Below are positions 74 to 13,353 of a stretch of 64,000 nucleotides of DNA, piece by piece. Made by a program: the position numbers and the translations under genes. The notes below the pieces were generated by a model. The model saw only the letters and a list, made by a program, of their open reading frames with translations. It did not search any database and was not told the origin of the DNA. Source of the stretch: Noviherbaspirillum saxi (GTDB lineage Bacteria; Pseudomonadota; Gammaproteobacteria; Burkholderiales; Burkholderiaceae_D); contig NZ_QYUO01000001.1 in the NCBI RefSeq assembly GCF_003591035.1, positions 1,240,001 to 1,304,000 on the forward strand. Direction: 5' to 3'. The stretch's first letter is position 1; each line of letters starts with the position of its first letter.

Positions 74-962
74 CGTTATCTCCTTGAGGTTGTAATGGGG
101 AGTTGTCATTCTCCGGGGGCGGCAAGGGCTGGTCTAGCAAGAATGCGACATCGCTCTTTGCAAGCTTTGCCGGCGAGATATTGATCAGGCGTCTGAATTC
201 ATTGCCCATGTGGCTTTGGTCGGTATAACCGGATTCAAATGCAATATCGGCCAGGGAATAGGCTTGTCGTTTGATAAGCGTCGCGGCATGGTGAAACCGC
301 ATGATGGAAGAAAAGAGTTTGGGAGAAATGCCCACCGTCTCAAGAAACACGCGTTCAAACTGGCGGCGGCTGGTGCCAAAGTTGGAAGCGGCTTCTTCGA
401 TTCTTCCGGTGCCATAAGTCGCTGTTATCTGTGCGACGGCATTGTCGATTCTGGATGGAAGCGGCTGTGTCCGTGCCACCTGTTTTTCAAATAGCGTATC
501 AAGTCGGGTGAAGATATCGAGTCCGGCAATATTGTCCGTTATGTTCTCCAGGGAAAAACGGAGCAGCCCCTCCACCGGCTCGCAGCGGTCAGCCAGTTCT
601 TTGGCCGCCGCTTTGATGAAGTGACGGCTTTGTCCAGGTTTGAAGCGAATGCCGAGGTAATGGCTGTTTGGCGCAAGCGCCACATCGGTAGCAGACGTCG
701 ATGTGCCGTATACCCGGCCTTGCACTTGCGCACCTTGCTGATGAATGACCAGATCGATAGCGCCGTCGGGCACCATCGGATAGGTCGGATTCAGGTTGCC
801 TATACTCAACCAGTAATGACTGATCAGGCCGCGAAGCGGGATTGAGGGCAGGATCGTGAAAAACCGGGGACCGGGGAACGTAGCGTCCATCATCGGTGGA
901 TGTTGATGCTTGTGAGCGTCGGTCCGGCAATTGTATATCGGGCTGCAGGCCGGGATTGGCAT
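45..962 (-). CDS. AraC-family transcriptional regulator
   Basis: A 305-residue protein from the chosen start. The N-terminal half carries a sensor-like segment (HYWL, then VPDGAIDLVIH) typical of AraC regulators of the DUF6597 type. The last 100 residues hold two helix-turn-helix motifs, including the signature segment LADIAFESGYTDQSHMGNEF followed by ISPAKL. The ATG at 962 overlaps the stop of the SMC-like gene as TAATG, suggesting reinitiation. A pair of ATGs at 893/890 gives a shorter product closer to the conserved domain; neither start has a convincing ribosome site. Its 3' end overlaps the VOC gene, its most likely target. Effector unknown. Confidence 0.8.
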   Translation of the reverse strand: MPIPACSPIYNCRTDAHKHQHPPMMDATFPGPRFFTILPSIPLRGLISHYWLSIGNLNPTYPMVPDGAIDLVIHQQGAQVQGRVYGTSTSATDVALAPNSHYLGIRFKPGQSRHFIKAAAKELADRCEPVEGLLRFSLENITDNIAGLDIFTRLDTLFEKQVARTQPLPSRIDNAVAQITATYGTGRIEEAASNFGTSRRQFERVFLETVGISPKLFSSIMRFHHAATLIKRQAYSLADIAFESGYTDQSHMGNEFRRLINISPAKLAKSDVAFLLDQPLPPPENDNSPLQPQGDNDENLVWRHY

Positions 963-3781
963 TAGGCCGCTTTTTCCGCCCTCCGCTGCAACACGAAAAT
1001 CGGTTGCGCCCAATGCGATTCCTTTTTCTTCTTGCTGGTGATCAGCGTTAGTTCCGAAGGATCGTAGACATCGGTATTGTGCGTCAGCGGCGTCGTCATC
1101 AGATATTGCGCATCGGTGTTCTTCAGGAACTCGCCGACGAGCTGGATATTGCGGATATCCAGGTGGGCAAAGGGCTCATCGATGAACACAAAGCCGCCTG
1201 AGCCGTCATCGGATTTCAGCAGGCCGATCAGCAGGATCAGCGACTTCATCACTTGCTGCCCACCCGAGGCTTCACCATCGTTCAAGCCGATTGGGCCCTT
1301 GCCATCGAACTTGAAGCGTACCTGCAAGCCTGCCTGCGCAAGCTGCACATCGTCGTTTTCCAGACGTACTGGATCGGTATGTACTTCGATGTTTGCCAAC
1401 TCGCCCAATTCCTTAATGTTGCGGCTATAGGTTTTGATCGTATAGCGCAGGCGTTCGATGTAGGCGCCGCGCGCATTGGTTGTGGCTTCGATCGCGCGAT
1501 TATTTTGATAGCGGCGTTCTTCGGTTTCGGCCTGACGGCCCTGCAGCAGCGCGGTCAGGCGTACATGCTGGTCGACCACGGTGGAATCGGTTTCCCAGTC
1601 TTCGCGCGCAAGATCGGTGGCGAGATGGCCGATGCGCAGATTGACCTGGTGCGCATTCTGATGCTGCTCGACCAGCTCGGCGCGGCGGGCAGGGCGGCGC
1701 CATGCAATCGGTAGATGACGCCAGTTCTTGCGGATGTCGATCAAGGCGCGTGCATGTGCGGAGCGTTCCTCTTGCGTGCGCTTTTGCGACAGGCGACCAT
1801 GCGCCTCGCTGTCGGCCAGCGAACGCTTGGCGTTTTGCCAGGCATTGTCGGCGAGCGTGCGTTCTTCGGTTGTCTTCTTGATCAAGGGGAACAGTTCGCC
1901 GAGCCGCGATCCGACCTCGGTACGTGTCGCTTTCAATGGTGCGGCATTATGCGTGGCTTCATCGAATTCGGGCTGACGCGCAACCAGTTCCTTGGCCGCA
2001 TCGACGCCGGCGATCCGTGCTTTCAGGGCGCTGACCTCGCCGGCCAGCTTGCTGATGCGAATCGTCAGTTGGTCTTCCTGCGCTTCTAGCTTGGGAAGCG
2101 ACTGTTGCAAGGCCGCCAGACGCTGGGCGCGTCCTGCTTGTCCGAAGCGGTAGCGCGCCGCCTCGACGAATACCGAGCGTCCGCCGCGTCGTTCGCGGTG
2201 ATAGGCGTCCGGCGTGATCCATTCTTCGTTCGCCGGCAGCCTGGCGCCGGCTTCGGCCGAGTCGACTCGTGTGACGCGTGCCAGTTGGTCAATCAGCCAG
2301 CCGGGTGCCTTGGCGCTAAAGCGTACGACAGCCAACAGGCTTTGGTCTTTCACTTCCGGCGCGGTCACGCGATCGGGTACGATGAAGTGGCCATAGCGTT
2401 CTTTTTCGCCGATGCGATATGCGGCGGCGGCATCGCGCGCATATTCAAGCAACACCACCGAGGTATAGCTGCGCAGCATGCCTTCCACCGCGCCTTGCCA
2501 GCGCGGATCGGTCACCTCGACGATGTCGGGCAGCATGGTATGCGCGATATTGGCGTCGCTTAATGCGCGTCGCATCACGCGCACATTTTCCGGGTCCGGC
2601 AAGCCCGATTTGCTTTCCAGTGCGGCGATGGCGCTGCGTTCGCCGGCGATGCGCGAGGCGAGCTCGTCGCGCGCCTGGCGCTGACGCATGTAATCGGCTT
2701 CCTTCTGCTCCAGCTCGGCCGCGACATCGGCGATACCGGCACCCGCGTCGGCCGCCAGTTTCTGCAATCGCGTTTTCTGTTCCAGCAGGCTTTCCAGCGG
2801 TTTGAGCTTGCCGTTGATTTCACCGAGGCGTTTTTCGAGTATGGTCTTTTCTTCTTCCAGCGTGGACTCATGCTGGTGCGCGGTGCTTAATGCGGAAGCT
2901 CGCTCGGCGAGGTCGACGCGCTTTTCCGACAATTGCTTATCCTGTGCCGCCAGCGAGTTGCGCGCCTCGTGCAAGGCGGTGCTGTTCGCCTGCGCCTTTT
3001 CGCGGATCTCGTGGTATTGCAGTGTCGGCAGGATTTCTTCCTGCAGATCGCGCTGCTCCTTGATCAATCCTTCCCACTGATGGTAGTTCGCGGCGCGCAG
3101 GCGCAAGCGTTCCTGGTTGGTCTGCGCCGATTCCAGTTCCGCCTCGAAGCGCTGCAATTCGGTTTCAGTATCGCGCTGATGGCGCTTGGCTTCATCATAG
3201 GCATCGAGCACTTCCTTGTCGCCGAACACTTGGAACACCAGGTCCAGCAACTGGCGCGGCGCATACTCGCATAGTTTGTCGGTCTCACCCTGTTCCAGCG
3301 CCAGCACTTTGGCCATGGCCGGCGAAAGGCCGGCATTGGCCAGGCGCTTGCGATAGCTTTCCAGGCCCAGCCAGTCGGTCGCTTCCTGCACTTCCTCGAT
3401 CTCGACCGCGCCGGCGCGCATCAGATATTGACGCTTCCAGTCGCCGCCGTTTTTCTGGATCTGGCAAAACAGGGTGACTTCATCTTCACTGAAGAAACCG
3501 GACGCGCGAAACGGCCGGTTCGACAGTTGCCGTCCGGTCGCGCGATTGTCGACCACAGCGCGCAGCCAGGAGGTCTGCTGGCCCGCATGACGCGCATAGT
3601 GCTTGTACGAACGCCCCATCGAACAATCCAGCCCGAACAGCGTGCGCAGTGCGTCGAGCAGGGTGGTCTTGCCCGAGCCGTTCTGGCCGGCGATGGTGAT
3701 GATCTTCGCATCCAGCGGAATGTTCTTGACGCGTTGCCAGTAGTCCCAGTGGACCATCTCCAGCGATTTGATATGAAACAT
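962..3781 (-). CDS. SMC-like condensin ATPase, MukB/MksB (JetC-like) family
   Basis: A 939-residue SMC-type ATPase. Walker A GQNGSGKTT is at residues 32-40 and coiled coil runs over about 190-390. A compact hinge-like region (about 395-545, with DPRWQGAVEGML) follows, then a second coiled coil to about 790. The ABC signature SGGQQ is at 839-843, Walker B FVFIDE at 864-869 and the D-loop HLD at 873-875. The head and hinge layout fits MksB and JetC proteins and is much shorter than E. coli MukB. The start at 3781 lies 14 bases after the MukE-like stop, with AGGA in front; an open frame extends further upstream but only through that gene in another frame. Expected role: ATP-driven DNA loop extrusion or compaction with the two upstream products. 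No JetD-like nuclease gene is adjacent, which argues for chromosome organisation over plasmid defence. That last point is inference. Confidence 0.8.
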   Translation of the reverse strand: MFHIKSLEMVHWDYWQRVKNIPLDAKIITIAGQNGSGKTTLLDALRTLFGLDCSMGRSYKHYARHAGQQTSWLRAVVDNRATGRQLSNRPFRASGFFSEDEVTLFCQIQKNGGDWKRQYLMRAGAVEIEEVQEATDWLGLESYRKRLANAGLSPAMAKVLALEQGETDKLCEYAPRQLLDLVFQVFGDKEVLDAYDEAKRHQRDTETELQRFEAELESAQTNQERLRLRAANYHQWEGLIKEQRDLQEEILPTLQYHEIREKAQANSTALHEARNSLAAQDKQLSEKRVDLAERASALSTAHQHESTLEEEKTILEKRLGEINGKLKPLESLLEQKTRLQKLAADAGAGIADVAAELEQKEADYMRQRQARDELASRIAGERSAIAALESKSGLPDPENVRVMRRALSDANIAHTMLPDIVEVTDPRWQGAVEGMLRSYTSVVLLEYARDAAAAYRIGEKERYGHFIVPDRVTAPEVKDQSLLAVVRFSAKAPGWLIDQLARVTRVDSAEAGARLPANEEWITPDAYHRERRGGRSVFVEAARYRFGQAGRAQRLAALQQSLPKLEAQEDQLTIRISKLAGEVSALKARIAGVDAAKELVARQPEFDEATHNAAPLKATRTEVGSRLGELFPLIKKTTEERTLADNAWQNAKRSLADSEAHGRLSQKRTQEERSAHARALIDIRKNWRHLPIAWRRPARRAELVEQHQNAHQVNLRIGHLATDLAREDWETDSTVVDQHVRLTALLQGRQAETEERRYQNNRAIEATTNARGAYIERLRYTIKTYSRNIKELGELANIEVHTDPVRLENDDVQLAQAGLQVRFKFDGKGPIGLNDGEASGGQQVMKSLILLIGLLKSDDGSGGFVFIDEPFAHLDIRNIQLVGEFLKNTDAQYLMTTPLTHNTDVYDPSELTLITSKKKKESHWAQPIFVLQRRAEKAA

Positions 3782-3795
3782 GCGAATCCTGTTGC

Positions 3796-4497
3796 TTATT
3801 GTTCGGTGTGCACAACCTGCGAAGATGCCTGCGCGTCGGGCTGAGGGAAGTGGATGATCGCGGCTTCCTTGGGCGGCGGCCGGTGGAAGATATCGGCCAG
3901 CGCGCCGTTGATGATCCGGTCTTTCAATGCATCGGTATCCATCATCAGGTCGAGCAGCGGGCCTTCGACAATCATGTCGCCGCGCCGCTCGATGAAGCCG
4001 AGCTTGTTGAGCTGGCCGAGATTGATGTCCATGCGCGTCTTCTTGCCGAGCTTGTCGCCGAAGTCGGCCAGTAGCGCCTTGTAGGAAATGCCCATCGACG
4101 CATCTTCGGCGCGCGGCATCGGTTTTTCCTTGCCGAACATGTCTTCCTGATCTTCCAGCGCATGCTGATGCGCTTCCTGGCGTTCGCGCTTGGGCAGGAT
4201 GATCATCGCCCACAGCACCACCAGCAGGGCCACGCCGTCACGCGCAAGGCCCATGTTGTTGTTTTGCCAGACTTCACGCGAGCCAAAGATCTTCGGCTCG
4301 ATTTCGCGGGCCAATGCCAGTGTGACGTTGTCCGCGTAGACGTTGTCGAGAAATTTCAGTCCGCACGCCGCCAGTCGGGTATCGAGATCGAGGCGAAACA
4401 CTTCGTCGGTGAGTGCGCGCTTGACCAGCTTGTTTTCGCGCGACAGGGTCTGGTGCGTCATCAGTTGCGCAATCAGGATTTGTGCGTCGTCAGTCAT
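3796..4497 (-). CDS. MukE/MksE-like condensin subunit (JetB-like)
   Basis: A 233-residue soluble protein in the position of mukE/mksE/jetB, between the kleisin-like and SMC-like genes. Residues about 132-190 look like a winged helix (MGISYKALLADFGDKLGKK, then LGQLNKLGFIERRGDMIVEG). The N-terminal half is helical with a hydrophobic stretch at 89-101 that is part of a globular fold in this family. Its ATG overlaps the stop of the upstream gene by 8 bases (ATGACTGA), a sign of translational coupling and fixed stoichiometry. MukE-type subunits bind the kleisin and modulate head engagement and DNA binding. The assignment rests mainly on gene order, size and winged-helix pattern. Confidence 0.65.
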   Translation of the reverse strand: MTDDAQILIAQLMTHQTLSRENKLVKRALTDEVFRLDLDTRLAACGLKFLDNVYADNVTLALAREIEPKIFGSREVWQNNNMGLARDGVALLVVLWAMIILPKRERQEAHQHALEDQEDMFGKEKPMPRAEDASMGISYKALLADFGDKLGKKTRMDINLGQLNKLGFIERRGDMIVEGPLLDLMMDTDALKDRIINGALADIFHRPPPKEAAIIHFPQPDAQASSQVVHTEQ

Positions 4498-5821
4498 GCT
4501 TGGTATCCGGTGGAGTTTCTGTAAGAGGAGTCAGGCTCGCATTGGAAATTGCGGCCACATGCGGGTCTTTCAGCTTGATCATGCCGTCCTGCGGTTCGAA
4601 GGCGAGCGGCAGACGCGCCATCGCGGCGGTGCCGCCCTGCAAGGCCGCTTCGCTTTCATCGCCGAGCAAGGGCAGCAGCGAAGCCCGATAAGACGCCACG
4701 GCAAAATTCGCCGGCAGCAGCGTGTCGTGCACCCTGGTCGAGGCATCGATCGATGCGGCAAATGAAGAGAGCCGGTTGAGCCAGGCATCGAGTTCGACCG
4801 GTGTCACGCTCGTCTTGCTTTCCATGACGGATGCATCTTCGCCGGCGGGAAGTTCCGCGACTGGCGCGGTGTTCTTGTCGGCGAACAGTTCGGCTTCGGC
4901 GACGTCGATCATTTCCGATGGCGTGATGAACATCGGCGTCACCGGCAATGCGATCGCATCGCGCGCAAGGCCAGCCAGATCTTCATGCTGCATCAGCCAG
5001 GTCTTGATATCGGTGGTCGACAGCCCCGATTGGCCGAGATGCACGCGCTGGCGTTCGATCTGATTGAGCGCGCGCGAAAACATGCCTTGCATATTGAGCA
5101 ATGCGCTCTGCGCGCGGCCGATCGCCTGTGCCGCTCGGTGTGTGGCCGTGTCGGCGTTGGGATCGTTGGTGATTGCGTGCAGGACTTCGGAGCCTTTTTC
5201 GACCCAGTCGCAGGCGGTATTCCATTTTTCCTGGGCCTTGCGCAGGCGGAATTCCGAGCCGGAGGCGATCGCATCGCGGAATTCCTCGGTCAGGTCCACC
5301 AGCCGTCCCAGCAAATGCTGGAGCTGTTCGACCGTGACACCGCCAACCGCCTGCGAGCCGGCCACCTGCGACAGCAGGAAGCCGATGTCGCCCTCGTCCT
5401 CATCCTGCGCCAGCGCCATCAGACTGTCGATCGCTGCCAGCACGTTGCGCGCCAGCGGCGTGATCCGGTACACCCCTTGCGGGGCGTCCCAGGACAGCAG
5501 CTGGTGCGAGCGCAGGCGATATAGCACGGTTTCCAGGCTTTCCGGCTCCAGATAGCCCAGCCTGGTATTGATATCGGCGCGGGTCAGCGCCGGTGCTGCA
5601 GCATCCGATGCCAGTTCCTGCAAGACCAGAAGCCGCACCAGCACTGCATCCGAACCGCCGTAGAACAGGGCCGTAAAGGCCGTCAGCAAGGGCTGCGCCC
5701 GCCTGAGGCGGTGTACCTGCTCGATATCGTCAGGGGAAATATTGGGCCTGAAGAAGGCTTGTAGAGAAGTCTGCTGCTCCTCATCCGGCATCGCGGCCGC
5801 ATTCGGTGAAAAATTCTGCAT
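4490..5821 (-). CDS. MukF/MksF-like kleisin subunit (JetA-like)
   Basis: A 443-residue protein, close to MukF in size. Residues about 60-125 form a winged-helix pattern (LTRADINTRLGYLEPESLETVL, ending GVYRITPLARNVL). A long helical middle with no catalytic motifs follows, then a variable acidic linker and a C-terminal domain. In MukF-type kleisins the N-terminal winged helix dimerises and the C-terminal domain contacts the SMC head. It is the first gene of the block and divergent from the ParA gene across 154 bases, so a promoter is expected there. There is no strong ribosome site before 5821; an ATG ten codons in (5791) is an alternative. Assignment is by gene order and fold pattern. Confidence 0.65.
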   Translation of the reverse strand: MQNFSPNAAAMPDEEQQTSLQAFFRPNISPDDIEQVHRLRRAQPLLTAFTALFYGGSDAVLVRLLVLQELASDAAAPALTRADINTRLGYLEPESLETVLYRLRSHQLLSWDAPQGVYRITPLARNVLAAIDSLMALAQDEDEGDIGFLLSQVAGSQAVGGVTVEQLQHLLGRLVDLTEEFRDAIASGSEFRLRKAQEKWNTACDWVEKGSEVLHAITNDPNADTATHRAAQAIGRAQSALLNMQGMFSRALNQIERQRVHLGQSGLSTTDIKTWLMQHEDLAGLARDAIALPVTPMFITPSEMIDVAEAELFADKNTAPVAELPAGEDASVMESKTSVTPVELDAWLNRLSSFAASIDASTRVHDTLLPANFAVASYRASLLPLLGDESEAALQGGTAAMARLPLAFEPQDGMIKLKDPHVAAISNASLTPLTETPPDTKHD

Positions 5822-5975: not shown

Positions 5976-6587
5976 ATGCCAGTCATCGTCATTGCCAATC
6001 CAAAGGGAGGTGTGGGCAAGAGCACCATCGCCACTAATCTGGCCGGCTATTTCGCAAAGCAGGGGCATAAGGTTATGCTCGGCGATATCGATATCCAGCA
6101 AAGCTCGCGTGCCTGGCTGGCATTGCGGCCGCCAAGCCTGCCGCCGATCGCCGCTTGGGAAATTGCCAATGGCCACATGGCGAAGCCACCCAAGGGAACC
6201 ACGCATGTCGTACTGGATACGCCGGCCGGTCTGAACGGGAGCCGTCTGGATGACGTGATGAAGCTGGCTGACAAGCTCGTCGTTCCGTTGCAGGCATCGA
6301 TGTTCGATATCCTCGCAACCCAGGAATTTCTGCAGCGACTGGCCGGCCGGCAAGAAAAGAACCAGGTGGGGGTGGTCGGCATGCGGATCAATGTCCGGAC
6401 CCGTGCAGCGGATCAGCTCGCGCATTACATGGGCAATCTGGGTTTGCCGGTGCTAGGCTATCTGCGTGACACGCAAAATTACGTGCAATTGGCTGCGCAT
6501 GGCGCAACCCTGTGGGATGTGGCGCCTTCTCGGGCTGAGCGCGATGTGGAGCAATGGCAAGAGCTTGTGAACTGGGTGCAGCAATAG
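5976..6587 (+). CDS. Solo ParA/MinD-type ATPase
   Basis: A 203-residue deviant Walker-A ATPase. The P-loop KGGVGKST is near residues 10-17, DIDIQQSSRAW matches the A' region, and VLDTPAG is the Walker B-like strand. A clear ribosome site (GGAGG) precedes the ATG. No parB gene or parS-like site cluster is visible, so it is an orphan, like the ParA-family ATPases that position chemoreceptors, plasmids or other cargo. Its divergent neighbours encode a MukBEF-like condensin, so a link with chromosome organisation is tempting but only suggested by position. It lacks the longer N-terminal DNA-binding region of chromosomal ParA proteins. Confidence 0.85.
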   Translation: MPVIVIANPKGGVGKSTIATNLAGYFAKQGHKVMLGDIDIQQSSRAWLALRPPSLPPIAAWEIANGHMAKPPKGTTHVVLDTPAGLNGSRLDDVMKLADKLVVPLQASMFDILATQEFLQRLAGRQEKNQVGVVGMRINVRTRAADQLAHYMGNLGLPVLGYLRDTQNYVQLAAHGATLWDVAPSRAERDVEQWQELVNWVQQ

Positions 6588-6664: not shown

Positions 6665-9421
6665 TTACTTGATTGCCTTGTCGGTATCCTCGCGCTCCGG
6701 ACCCGCTTCACTGCGCGCAGCCTGAGACCCTCCGGAAGAAGGTGTGTCGTTGCCGGCGGCAAGCAGATGACCGTTCGTGGTGCGCTGCCCATCGCGGAAT
6801 TCTCCTTCCCACACACTGCCGTTGGCCCAGCTGAAGCGGCCCTGGCCGTTGCTTCGTCCACGCGCGACCGTGCCGACATAGACATCGCCATTCTTGAAGC
6901 GTGTTACACCTTGGCCATGAGGCAGACCGTCCCTGATATCGCCTTCATAGCGGGTGCCGTCGGCAAATACATGGATACCTTTGCCGTTCGGCACGCCGTT
7001 TCGGATCTGTCCCTCATACCGCGAGCCATCGGAAAATATCAGTACGCCACGACCATCGGGCAAGCCGTTCCTGACCTCGCCCTCGTAGCGATTGCCGTTG
7101 GCAAACACGAGCGTGCCGCGTCCATTCGGCTCGTTCCTGAGCCAGTCGCCGTTATAGCGCTGACCATTGCTCCAGACGAACTGGCCTTTGCCTTCCTTCG
7201 AGCCTTTGACCAGCGTGCCATCGAAGCGGTCGCCGTTGTTCCAGACAATACGCCCGGTCCCGGATACCAGGCCGGTCACCGGATCTGCATTGAAATCCCC
7301 GCTCATCGTTTGATCCGCGTGCTTGTAGGTTTTGCGCGGCGTTGCGCTTGCCGCATCGGGTGAGGGGGCTGGCGGTGGCAGCTTATCCGTTGGCTGTTTG
7401 AAGCCTGAAGGAACAGAGGGAGAGGATGCCGGAGGCGGCGTGCGCTCGGTTCTCGAAGCGACCTGTGTGTCCGGTTCGCGCGGGGTGCTGCGCGACGGGT
7501 TCTCGGTTGGCTGGCTTGCTGCCGGCTGCGGACTCGCACTTCCGGTCGCGGCACTGCCTGCCGCTGCGTTGCCGGACGATGCGCGGTCGGTTTCGCTTGC
7601 CTGCGGCGGCCGTGATGCGACTTGCGCCTGAGGCTTCTCGACTTTTGACCGCAAGCGGATCTCGGCCAATCGCTGACGTGCGTCTATTGCATTGGCGCCA
7701 TAGGGAAAACGATTCAGGTAAGCCTCGTAGGCCGGCGCTTCATCAAGATTGCGCGCAATTCTCCATTGCTCCCGCTCCGCAGCGATTTTGGCAGTCTCTT
7801 TTTGCTTCGCCGCTTCGGTCGGGGTCGCCGGTATCGAAGGTGCCGGCTTCGCAGGTTCAGGCACAGGCTCTTTCTCCTTTGTAAGAGAAGCCAGCGGCGC
7901 GGTTGGTGCAGGCGGGGTTGCAGGCACGTCGCTGGCAGGTTTCTCGGCCCTGTGCTCCGGGCGTGCTTCGGGCAAGCGTGCGGGCGGCGGCGCAGCTTCT
8001 TCACTGCGCGCAATCACGGGTGCCGGCGGCATCACCGCCGGAGCTGTCTGTTGCGGCGGTATCGCGCGCGCGATGCCGGTATCCATGGATTCCGCGCTAT
8101 TGTCGGTTGAGCCGGCAATAGAGTTGCTTGCATGGTTTGCATCCGGCTCGAGCAGGCTTCCCTCGCCGATGATCAGGCCTGCGGCAATTCCGGCGACCAG
8201 CACGATACCCGACACGATCATTGCCGAACGGCGTGGCGGCGATGAATTGGGCGAAATCTTTTTCTCGAACGGCATCGGCTTTTGCCGGCCGTGCGACGCT
8301 GGCGCTTCGACGCCGACGGTCGTCATGCCGGATGGCTGTGCCATTGTCGTATCGCCTCTGGCACGGGTTTGCGCCGCGAGTGCCTCGCGGTGCAGGCGTA
8401 TCGCCTCGCGTGCGTTGGTCGCGCCGTGATAAGCAGACGGTTCCAATACAGTGCTGTCGCTCTTGAGTGCCGTGCGCATTGCATTTACCGATCGTATGCG
8501 CTCGTCCGGCCGTACGGCCAATGCATGATCGAGCGCGGCGAGCAGGTTATCGCTATAGACATTGCGTCCGACTTCGCACGCAGGCCGCATGGTGTCATTG
8601 ACGATGCGCTGGGTTGCGGGCGGCGGCGGCTTGCCGGCGATCAGGTAATACGCAACGGCAGCGACTGCATAGATATCCGTCCATGCGCCTTGCTCCAGAT
8701 CCGGCATGTCCGGATAGAGCTCGATAGGCGCAAATCCAGATACCAGCGTACCGGATCGCACCTGGGTAAGTTCCGCGATCATTGCCTGCGCAGAATCGAA
8801 TTCCAGCAATAGGGGGCGGCCGGTTTCACGAATCAGAATATTGCCTGGCGATATATTCCCATGGCAGGATTGGGCACGATGCACGGCTTCGATGGCATGC
8901 AACAGGTCGCTCACCAAGGTTTTGATCCACTCGTCATTCAAGGGCGCCCTATGCTCGGCAACGGTTTGCTTGAGCGTGATGCCTTCATAGAGCGGCATTG
9001 ACGCATAGGCGGTGCGATGTGCTTCCCAATAGCGCTGGACCTTGACCAGCGAAGCAGACTCAGTCCGGTTCAGCACCAATGCTTCATTGATGAAGCTGCG
9101 CAATCCGGCATCGAAGTTGGTGCTGTCTTGCCCGGAAGCCGGTTCTACCGACATGTCGGGTGTACGAACGGCAATACCTCGCGGCATGTATTCTCTCAGC
9201 GCAACATGCCGCCGTTGCGAATGATCATAGGCAAGATACAGAATCGACGCAGCACCTTCATTGATCACTTCGACAATGTTGAAGCTCTCTATGCGTGTAC
9301 CGGTATTCAGGGCTCCGGAAGTCTCGCCCTGTCCACGCGACGTCGTGGACGGTTTCGTTGCGGACGAGCCGATGTGGCCTTCGATGGAAGTCTTGGTGTT
9401 GTCGTCTTGCATATCGATCAC
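6665..9421 (-). CDS. Pseudokinase with transmembrane segment and C-terminal MORN repeats
   Basis: A 918-residue protein. Residues about 46-320 have the Ser/Thr kinase fold, but the three catalytic positions are changed: the VAIK lysine is Arg76 (VALREYMP), HRD reads HGN (187-189) and DFG reads EFD (207-209). The loop Asn194, the PIE motif near 232-234 and Asp249 remain. A transmembrane helix at 400-419 is followed by a Pro/Ala-rich linker, a short helical EAYLNRFPYG motif near 565 and seven 23-residue MORN repeats at about 722-884. The kinase half should face the cytoplasm and the MORN half the periplasm. The first codon is GTG at 9421; the ATG at 9412 is equally possible and neither has a strong ribosome site. 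Likely a scaffold or signalling protein at the envelope; no partner is visible nearby. Confidence 0.85.
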   Translation of the reverse strand: MIDMQDDNTKTSIEGHIGSSATKPSTTSRGQGETSGALNTGTRIESFNIVEVINEGAASILYLAYDHSQRRHVALREYMPRGIAVRTPDMSVEPASGQDSTNFDAGLRSFINEALVLNRTESASLVKVQRYWEAHRTAYASMPLYEGITLKQTVAEHRAPLNDEWIKTLVSDLLHAIEAVHRAQSCHGNISPGNILIRETGRPLLLEFDSAQAMIAELTQVRSGTLVSGFAPIELYPDMPDLEQGAWTDIYAVAAVAYYLIAGKPPPPATQRIVNDTMRPACEVGRNVYSDNLLAALDHALAVRPDERIRSVNAMRTALKSDSTVLEPSAYHGATNAREAIRLHREALAAQTRARGDTTMAQPSGMTTVGVEAPASHGRQKPMPFEKKISPNSSPPRRSAMIVSGIVLVAGIAAGLIIGEGSLLEPDANHASNSIAGSTDNSAESMDTGIARAIPPQQTAPAVMPPAPVIARSEEAAPPPARLPEARPEHRAEKPASDVPATPPAPTAPLASLTKEKEPVPEPAKPAPSIPATPTEAAKQKETAKIAAEREQWRIARNLDEAPAYEAYLNRFPYGANAIDARQRLAEIRLRSKVEKPQAQVASRPPQASETDRASSGNAAAGSAATGSASPQPAASQPTENPSRSTPREPDTQVASRTERTPPPASSPSVPSGFKQPTDKLPPPAPSPDAASATPRKTYKHADQTMSGDFNADPVTGLVSGTGRIVWNNGDRFDGTLVKGSKEGKGQFVWSNGQRYNGDWLRNEPNGRGTLVFANGNRYEGEVRNGLPDGRGVLIFSDGSRYEGQIRNGVPNGKGIHVFADGTRYEGDIRDGLPHGQGVTRFKNGDVYVGTVARGRSNGQGRFSWANGSVWEGEFRDGQRTTNGHLLAAGNDTPSSGGSQAARSEAGPEREDTDKAIK

Positions 9422-11598: not shown

Positions 11599-12477
11599 TC
11601 AGGTTGGAGAATAGGCCAGCCGCACGTAAATCGGTGCAAACGCTTCGGCCTGGGTAATTTCGATCAAGGTTTCCTTTGCCAGCTCCAGCAGCGCGATGAA
11701 ATTGACGATCACTACCGGCACGCCGCGCGACGGGTCGAACAGATCAGCGAACTCGACGAACCTGGCCGACTGCAGCCGACGCAGGATGCCGGTCATGTGC
11801 TCGCGCACCGACAATTCCTCGCGGCTGATCGTATGGTGGGCGGTCAGCTTTGCACGCTTGAGGATGTCGGCCCACACTGCTTGCAATTCGCTCATGCTGA
11901 CTTCCGGCCAGCGGGTGACGACATTCTGTTCGATATAGATCTGCGCACGGACATAGTCCCGTCCGAGTTGTGGCAGTGCATCCAGTTCTTGTGCGGCGAC
12001 CTTCATCTGCTCGTATTCGAGCAGGCGGCGCACCAGTTCGGCGCGCGGATCTTCCGCTTCTTCGCCGGTATCGGCTTTCTTCACCGGCAGCAGCATGCGC
12101 GACTTGATTTCGATGAGCATGGCCGCCATCAGCAGATATTCCGCCGCCAGCTCCAGATTACGTACACGGATCTGATCGACGTAATCGAGATACTGGCGCG
12201 TTACCTGCGCCATCGGGATGTCGAGAATATTGAAGTTCTGCTTGCGGATCAGGTACAACAGGAGATCGAGCGGGCCCTGGAATGCTTCCAGAAAAACCTC
12301 GAGCGCATCGGGCGGAATGTAGAGATCCGTCGGCAGCTTGAACAGCGGTTCGCCGTACAGTTTTGCGTAAGCCATGCCATCAACGACATCAGGTGTCGTG
12401 TCCGGCTGTCCCGCGAGCGCAAGCTCGGGCGCGTCAGCCGGCAAATGCGCTAGCAGCGCGTCCTGCTGCGCCGACAT
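11599..12477 (-). CDS. scpA: Segregation and condensation protein A
   Basis: A 292-residue kleisin of the standard SMC-ScpAB condensin. The N-terminal family motif FQGPLDLLLYLIRKQNFNIL is clear near residues 69-88, and the C-terminal winged helix is present (FVEFADLF, VVIVNFIALLELAKETLIE). The gene starts within the stop codon of the DUF3460 gene (TGATG), so translation is probably coupled. scpB and smc are not in the window. With the MukBEF-like block at 1-6 kb, the organism appears to encode two different condensin kleisins. Confidence 0.92.
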   Translation of the reverse strand: MSAQQDALLAHLPADAPELALAGQPDTTPDVVDGMAYAKLYGEPLFKLPTDLYIPPDALEVFLEAFQGPLDLLLYLIRKQNFNILDIPMAQVTRQYLDYVDQIRVRNLELAAEYLLMAAMLIEIKSRMLLPVKKADTGEEAEDPRAELVRRLLEYEQMKVAAQELDALPQLGRDYVRAQIYIEQNVVTRWPEVSMSELQAVWADILKRAKLTAHHTISREELSVREHMTGILRRLQSARFVEFADLFDPSRGVPVVIVNFIALLELAKETLIEITQAEAFAPIYVRLAYSPT

Positions 12478-12674
12478 CAGAACTTGTTCTGATAAACGTA
12501 GGGCTGCTGCATGATGCGCGATTCCTCAGCACGCTTGCGGGCGTCGAGATCGATCGGTGCCTTGTCCCAAAAGATGGCGCGGCCGGCGCGCTGCTTCTGC
12601 TCCAACTCGGGATCCTTTTGCTTCAGCTCGTTCAGGAACTTGGTGAATTCAGACTCGTATTGCGAGAATTTCAT
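12477..12674 (-). CDS. DUF3460 family small protein
   Basis: A 65-residue soluble protein beginning MKFSQYESEFTKFLNELK. It is charged and Lys/Glu-rich, with ending RIMQQPYVYQNKF. This family is known from betaproteobacteria and is usually found just before scpA, as here, with a TGATG overlap. An ATG five codons upstream (12689) is possible, but MKFSQYESEF is the usual family beginning. Function is unknown; the coupling suggests a link to ScpA or simply a shared transcript. Confidence 0.8.
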   Translation of the reverse strand: MKFSQYESEFTKFLNELKQKDPELEQKQRAGRAIFWDKAPIDLDARKRAEESRIMQQPYVYQNKF

Positions 12675-12811
12675 GGTGTTTAAGGTCACAGGATGAATGC
12701 TGTCGTTATTCTACCTTGTCTTGCCCGTAAATCCTGTACTTCGGCACACACTGTGACGATGCGACAGGTATTGCGTATTAGACAATAAGAGCTCGATGCA
12801 AGATGGCAATC

Positions 12812-13291
12812 TTAATACCCAAGCATCCGACGCATTACGGTCGGTGCCGGCTCCAGCGGGTTGGCATGCGTGTATTCCAGTTCCGGTGCAAGTTCGAAGC
12901 CATAGGCTGCGTACAGGTCGAGCAGCCGTACCTGATCCGAGCGAACGCCCAGTCGCAGCTCGGTCACATCGGAAGCCTGAGCGCGATGAATGACCGCTTC
13001 GAGCAAGTGCTGAGACAAATGCTCACCCCGAAATTGCGGCAATACGCCCATGCGCATGATTTCCCAGATGTCCGGATCCACCTCGAGTGGACCCCAGCGC
13101 GCCGAGCCTATCGGTTCCTCATCGCGCAACAGAATAAAGCCACCGCCCTGTTCCAGGTCGTGCCGCACCCGCACCGCGGTTTCGCGGTGTCCGCTGGACG
13201 TCACCGCCACCTTGCTCGCCCACGCCGCGCGGGTCAGGTCGGCAATGAGCTGGGCATCATCGAACGTGGCTTCGCGGACAACAATATTCAT
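12812..13291 (-). CDS. GNAT-family N-acetyltransferase
   Basis: A 159-residue single-domain GNAT enzyme. The N-terminal strand VREATFDDAQLIADL and the acetyl-CoA segment MGVLPQFRGEHLSQHLLEAV (a variant of Q/RxxGxG/A) are visible, then LRLGVRSDQVRLLDLYAAYGF. It transfers an acetyl group from acetyl-CoA to an unknown amine. It lies between metG and the DUF3460 gene on the same strand with about 60 bases to metG. The substrate cannot be read from the sequence. Confidence 0.82.
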   Translation of the reverse strand: MNIVVREATFDDAQLIADLTRAAWASKVAVTSSGHRETAVRVRHDLEQGGGFILLRDEEPIGSARWGPLEVDPDIWEIMRMGVLPQFRGEHLSQHLLEAVIHRAQASDVTELRLGVRSDQVRLLDLYAAYGFELAPELEYTHANPLEPAPTVMRRMLGY

Positions 13292-13353
13292 GTGCAGAGT
13301 CTCGCCGGAAAAAGGGAAACGATACGCATGTCAGGTGTCATTGCATACTCCAC

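Follow-up and report, generated by a model that had tools for sequence, protein, structure and literature searches.

Organization of the Locus

The window, meaning the whole stretch of 64,000 nucleotides of Noviherbaspirillum saxi DNA analyzed here, holds three coupled genes on the minus strand, running from position 5821 down to 962 as judged from open reading frames and sequence. An mksF-like (kleisin) gene at 4490..5821 (443 aa) is followed by an mksE-like (KITE) gene at 3796..4497 (233 aa), both with ATG starts, and by an mksB-like gene coding for an SMC ATPase at 962..3781 (939 aa; ATG at 3781, stop at 962). All three frames are open. The longest mechanical open reading frame of mksB extends to 4213, and the start giving 939 aa is the one common to its relatives. 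An overlap of 8 bases (4490-4497) joins mksE and mksF, and 14 bases separate the mksE stop from the mksB start, confirming the coupled MukFEB/MksFEB/JetABC order described in the initial annotation. The F-E-B order is complete in 78 of 80 named related loci, with mksE and mksB matches in all 80; in L048 and L077 mksF is missing as the contig begins inside mksE. Since this order recurs across these related loci, and since all three proteins have many relatives at E ≤ 1e-3 (at least 1696, at least 975, and 1500 among the candidates scored), the operon is not a chance arrangement.

On one side of the operon lies an AraC-type regulator (45-1013) and on the other, divergent from mksF, a ParA-like gene (5976-6587, plus strand), which is short and reaches 111 of 180 bits with NF041546 (ParA_partition). 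A comparison of 22 Oxalobacteraceae loci, as had been suggested, led us to discard the latter as an mks partner, given that it adjoins mksF only in the window, L160, and L161; these two loci keep it beside mks together with panC and scpA. The gene at 6665-9421 (minus strand) encodes a protein-kinase-like domain, with NCBIfam matches below cut-off and C-terminal MORN-like repeats recognized by eye; the two closest relatives have no such gene in the interval from mks to scpA. Several Thauera/Rhodocyclaceae loci (L081 at 6870-7976, L083, L077, L090) carry an extra gene between mksE and mksB, which we take to resemble a tRNA uracil methyltransferase (TrmA-like), and L071 and L094 have other inserts. 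Neither open reading frames nor family models revealed a JetD on either flank of the window operon.

The SMC Motor

MksB has the features of an SMC ATPase: Walker A, signature, Walker B, arms, and hinge, all on the minus strand. The Walker A motif (residues 32-40, positions 3662..3688) reads GQNGSGKTT, a form found in 2 of 84 aligned sequences, the other 82 having GPNGSGKTT. The ABC signature EASGGQQ (residues 837-843, 1253..1273) is identical in 81 of the 84, and Walker B with its catalytic Glu, GFVFIDEP (residues 863-870, 1172..1195), in 83. Conservation in the alignment is concentrated in the two heads and in residues ~400-540, with variable arms between them.

The conserved hinge region (residues 390-555, 2117..2614), which is free of long coiled coil, matches the JetC proteins of the two Wadjet systems of the same genome in hmmsearch (L010, E 9.2e-8; L009, E 4.3e-6), against 6.4e-3 for the genome's own Smc, 0.22 for MukB, 0.97 for RecN, and 0.013 for the best shuffle. 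The MksB hinge is thus closer to JetC than to MukB, Smc, SbcC, or RecN. By hhalign, the full-length profile reaches JetC at E 1.8e-18 over 704 columns, ahead of the own Smc (5.9e-8), the JetC of L010 (1.2e-5), and MukB (2.1e-5); all 13 unrelated controls fall at E ≥ 0.12, though coiled coil may inflate these scores. The ATPase heads by themselves do not point to Jet in particular: with the N-head profile the own Smc (18.3 bits) comes out slightly ahead of JetC (17.6 bits), and in hhalign the C-head lies closest to MukB. With curated models, MksB obtains 71.8 bits for PADLOC JetC and stays below cut-off for the MukB family models (17.5 of 23 bits; 13.1 of 699).

These comparisons also bear on a Rad50/SbcC- or RecN-like repair ATPase, to which the SMC-type heads, a weak SbcC match at Walker A, and the top place of Rad50 in the PDB sequence matches might point. 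Yet MksB has three Cys and no CXXC zinc hook, its hinge is unlike those of SbcC and RecN, and its gene follows, in constant order, those of a kleisin-like and a KITE-like partner, so that this reading is barely credible. The strong SbcC or RecN match that would have spoken against a condensin did not appear in the profile searches.

The Kleisin-Like and KITE-Like Subunits

No Pfam, NCBIfam, or PADLOC family model scores above its cut-off for the window's MksF or MksE. The AlphaFold model of MksE, of low confidence (mean pLDDT 59.1), has just three Foldseek matches at E ≤ 0.001, all of them JetB chains (8as8_C, 8dk1_F, and 8dk1_E), and it displays the tandem winged helix of a KITE subunit. A weak DUF4194 match occurs in 6 of 22 members of the MksE family, the window's own protein not among them. 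The IFDR motif published for JetB (available part of PMC10586767) was found in none of 86 MksE sequences; as the nine JetBs analyzed here do not have it either, it is uninformative.

The MksF model is likewise of low confidence (mean pLDDT 56.3), with a winged-helix N-terminus and a helical bundle. No Foldseek match was recovered for it at E ≤ 0.001; the best are MukF (7nz2_C1, E 5.6e-3, with low TM) and MukE-MukF (3euh_A, 1.9e-2), and VIA-align pairs it with winged helices of the MarR type and with helical bundles. In profile comparison with the Muk, Mks, and Jet proteins, as initially proposed, the SMC is nearest JetC, and the kleisin found no match in sequence searches. By hhalign, nothing clear emerged for the kleisin and KITE families against JetA, MukF, JetB, and MukE (KITE to JetB at E 0.015, best control 0.064), but known pairs failed alike (JetA-MukF 0.13, JetB-MukE 0.061, JetB-JetB 0.38). 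Neither family recovered a Jet or Muk chain in PDB profile searches. Of the three assignments, that of the kleisin is the weakest, a putative one resting on gene position and the weak structural match to MukF.

Taken together, the hinge, the KITE model, and the recurring F-E-B order identify the window operon as a divergent MksFEB complex of the JetABC type.

Other SMC and Wadjet Systems in the Genome

A canonical Smc is encoded in the genome (1138 bits against a cut-off of 567), and a ScpA gene lies inside the window at 11599-12477. Two JetD_C matches were found, at G000:C1:652856-653392 and at C3:1124203-1124340, each inside its own jet operon. The Wadjet at C1 is complete by PADLOC (JetA 744.6, JetB 311.6, JetC 1677.3, and JetD 495.4 bits). 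The second set, at C3, has JetB, JetC, JetD, and a JetA of 275 aa that matches profile positions 210-472 of 475 only. This short jetA (L010 3283-4110, plus strand, G000:C3) is missing roughly the initial 205 positions of the profile, and upstream of it no open reading frame resembling jetA was seen. The absence of JetD claimed at the outset is therefore true of the mks locus and false of the genome; the two jetD genes found elsewhere stand with their own jet genes and do not complete the window system.

A Diverged JetD behind mksB in Relatives

Clustering of neighboring open reading frames around 104 mks loci revealed, in 12 of them from diverse genera, a gene that follows mksB immediately and in the same direction, and a profile search raised this to 17 of 111 loci. 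The 111 are the 118 distinct mksB of at least 800 aa minus seven with less than 1.3 kb downstream (L032, L047, L080, L086, L090, L098, and L145). They take in 72 of the 80 named loci, 13 of these with JetD; L017 duplicates L014, and L026 and L045 are too short. Of the 12 aligned members of the fourth gene, as many as 11 are recognized by PADLOC JetD models (best 4.1e-22), and Pfam assigns DUF2399 to seven, JetD_C to two, and Topo VI A TOPRIM to two. The gene behind mksB is a diverged JetD of the TOPRIM type. Fifteen of the 17 retain the TOPRIM Glu and DxD; the two exceptions, L088 and L096 from Crenobacter, have substitutions there (E-to-Q, D-to-S).

Searches of other kinds passed over this gene. 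Phmmer with the genome's two JetDs detected no JetD in related loci, and a JetD_C search of 54 mks-carrying genomes matched 13, none next to mks; both missed the family's own JetD, which is present in genomes that are empty by JetD_C search (e.g., G154, G845, G825, and G802). Pfam JetD_C alone thus misses most JetD of the mks family, and counts of "JetD-less" systems obtained in this way are unsafe.

JetD diverges faster than MksB (L094 and L081 share 52% identity in the former versus 87% in the latter). Nevertheless, across the 17 loci the distances of the two proteins rise together (Spearman 0.555, a value reached in none of 2000 permutations), with the same nearest neighbor in 9 of 17, and this agreement favors inheritance together. 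Signature variants occur in 3 of the 17 JetD loci (L074, L088, and L096) and in none of the 94 others (Fisher 0.003), a contrast that we do not count as evidence because the rows are related.

Distribution of the mks Family

Among 599 pattern matches in species genomes, at least 532 were confirmed as MksB relatives, of which the best 80 were kept; those listed come from Lysobacteraceae, Rhodanobacteraceae, Nevskiaceae, Rhodocyclales, Chromobacteriaceae, Neisseriaceae, and Desulfuromonadales, among others. Of 97 genomes in the window's family, 39 have the kleisin, 36 of these being close to the type of the window, and three other genomes of the genus are without the mks gene set. MksB occurs in 31 of 200 genomes of the order that includes Vogesella, in 6 of 398 of the phylum, and in 2 of 369 of the class. 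With the three best candidates per genome scored, no full-length MksB relative was found in 248 genomes of a family which we take, from a 16S pattern, to be Pseudomonadaceae.

Such patchiness (39 of 97 family genomes) speaks against a condensin in that it also fits defense. One such scenario is an SMC-based defense that compacts or silences foreign DNA, or acts with an unlinked effector, without JetD cleavage; the Jet-like ancestry and the two Wadjets of the genome agree with it. Against it, the JetD-like gene is the sole neighbor shared family-wide among the 104 loci (top 22 clusters), the larger clusters looking lineage-local, and we regard this scenario as unlikely.

Loss or Gain of the Nuclease

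The family JetD was found in 12 of the 69 mks-carrying genomes searched, 11 times directly by mks and once unlinked. In the window's clade it occurs in 0 of 35 genomes, 26 of which are also without any JetD_C match, and the window's own genome does not have it either. The unlinked copy, in Chromobacterium alkanivorans (G850), lies on a different contig from mks, and the 14 kb examined there contain neither mks nor jetABC genes; this solitary gene (L204 8790-10445, minus strand) has an altered second TOPRIM Asp (ACDLAPSG).

It could be argued that the window complex is a plasmid-defense sensor borrowing JetD in trans from the Wadjet operons of the genome, as the two jetD genes elsewhere, the patchy distribution of mks, and the unlinked family JetD of G850 would allow. 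However, the genome's JetDs have their own jetABC, and in seven of eight JetD loci of relatives jetA, B, C, and D stand together (jetC of L180 is split over two frames; L187 gave no match). Moreover, with 26 of 35 genomes of the window's clade lacking either kind of JetD, a JetD in trans cannot be required. We consider such borrowing improbable.

On the mksB tree, which takes in the window (its sequence is identical to L098), JetD presence calls for at least 13 changes, compared with a shuffled mean of 16.1 (6 to 9 of 500 shuffles as low), although this count does not tell losses from gains. Eleven of the 13 are forced by well-supported branches, and several long branches make the details unsure. 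Decay states are also found. In L176 (G770) a jetD start of ~50 codons is left, followed by a 185-bp × 5.4 tandem repeat (12324-13313), and its group-mates G825 and G802 carry an intact JetD. A search for remnants in the 94 regions behind JetD-less mksB gave one match, L142, which is the same locus as L176. JetD in the mks family is therefore found intact, catalytically altered, truncated, relocated, and absent. Because of these decay states and the signal of co-inheritance, we infer that the change was a loss of JetD and not a gain. The earlier suggestion of a Wadjet relative that lost its nuclease gains strength: JetD lies behind mksB in 17 of 111 loci, and the window's clade (35 genomes) has none.

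The loss of JetD, together with the damage observed in some relatives (a few matches to mksB or mksF contain stop codons, and mksB of L045 lies in two frames), could also suggest a decaying, non-functional Wadjet remnant. The window's three frames are open, however, and its MksB is 86% identical to the nearest relative over 935 columns. Furthermore, the motor motifs are conserved in all 94 JetD-less loci: every one of them has an intact Walker A, with P or Q as its second residue, and the signature EASGGQQ, and Walker B is GFVFIDEP in 93, the remaining one with an I-to-V change. A dying remnant is thus very unlikely.

A Probable Nuclease-Free Accessory Condensin

In this context, we put forward that the window operon is probably a nuclease-less MksFEB, an accessory chromosome condensin that arose from a Wadjet-like ancestor by loss of JetD. 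The ancestor would have been a four-gene Wadjet-like system with JetD directly behind mksB, the nuclease being lost in the window's clade. By analogy with MukBEF, JetABC, and the MksBEF of P. aeruginosa, as the available parts of the accounts present them (PMC7485682, PMC10586767, PMC10512200), two MksB subunits would join at the JetC-like hinge, the MksF kleisin would bridge their heads, and dimers of the KITE subunit MksE would sit on the kleisin. Powered by the binding and hydrolysis of ATP, the complex might then load onto the DNA of the host chromosome and extrude loops there, without cleavage. Assembly, extrusion, and chromosomal target are all predicted on this analogy, as is a role of accessory condensin beside Smc-ScpAB. 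A broader proposal, that the whole family forms a Wadjet-to-condensin series in which the nuclease was lost many times independently and the bare motor was kept each time as a chromosome condensin, is more tentative, and we place it somewhat below an even chance.

The locus itself is of an ordinary kind, a nuclease-free MksBEF, in a divergent family outside the curated models, and its evolutionary context is unusually informative. Both forms occur side by side in one sequence family, and the origin of MksBEF by JetD loss is so far a proposal (PMC10586767, in the part available). With intact JetD in G825 and G802 and a truncated one in G770, all in one genus-level group, the change is testable in close strains having the same motor with and without the nuclease. 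A literature search yielded no description of the mks family or its JetD loss, parts of which Petrushenko 2011 and Deep 2022 may cover.

Comparison with Known Systems

SbcC/Rad50 differs from the window MksB by its CXXC zinc hook. Smc-ScpAB shares ABC ATPase heads, arms, and hinge, and there is a weak full-length similarity to SMC_prok_B (69.3 bits), but this is far below the NCBIfam cut-off of 567 bits and the genome has a separate Smc and ScpA. Escherichia coli MukBEF has the same F-E-B order and coupling, similar kleisin and KITE lengths (MukF and MukE, 440 and 234 aa), and in MukF the nearest match to the kleisin model. Unlike the window SMC, however, MukB measures 1486 aa against 939, upholding the distinction in size made initially; the MukB models stay below cut-off, and the hinge is not MukB-like.

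The MksBEF of P. aeruginosa PAO1 likewise comprises three genes, without nuclease, beside Smc-ScpAB. A chromosomal role is described for it (available part of PMC7485682), and its origin from Wadjet by JetD loss has been proposed (PMC10586767, likewise in part). It may differ, in that no full-length relative of the window MksB was found, among the three best candidates per genome, in the 248 presumed Pseudomonadaceae genomes. Finally, Wadjet (JetABCD, or MksBEFG) differs from the window locus in having JetD in the operon, in a longer SMC (the two JetCs of the genome measure 1146 and 1208 aa, against 939 aa here), and in a kleisin and KITE recognized by PADLOC, whereas it shares the F-E-B(-G) order, the JetC-like hinge, the JetB-like KITE model, and, in 17 of 111 relatives, the JetD-family gene behind mksB.
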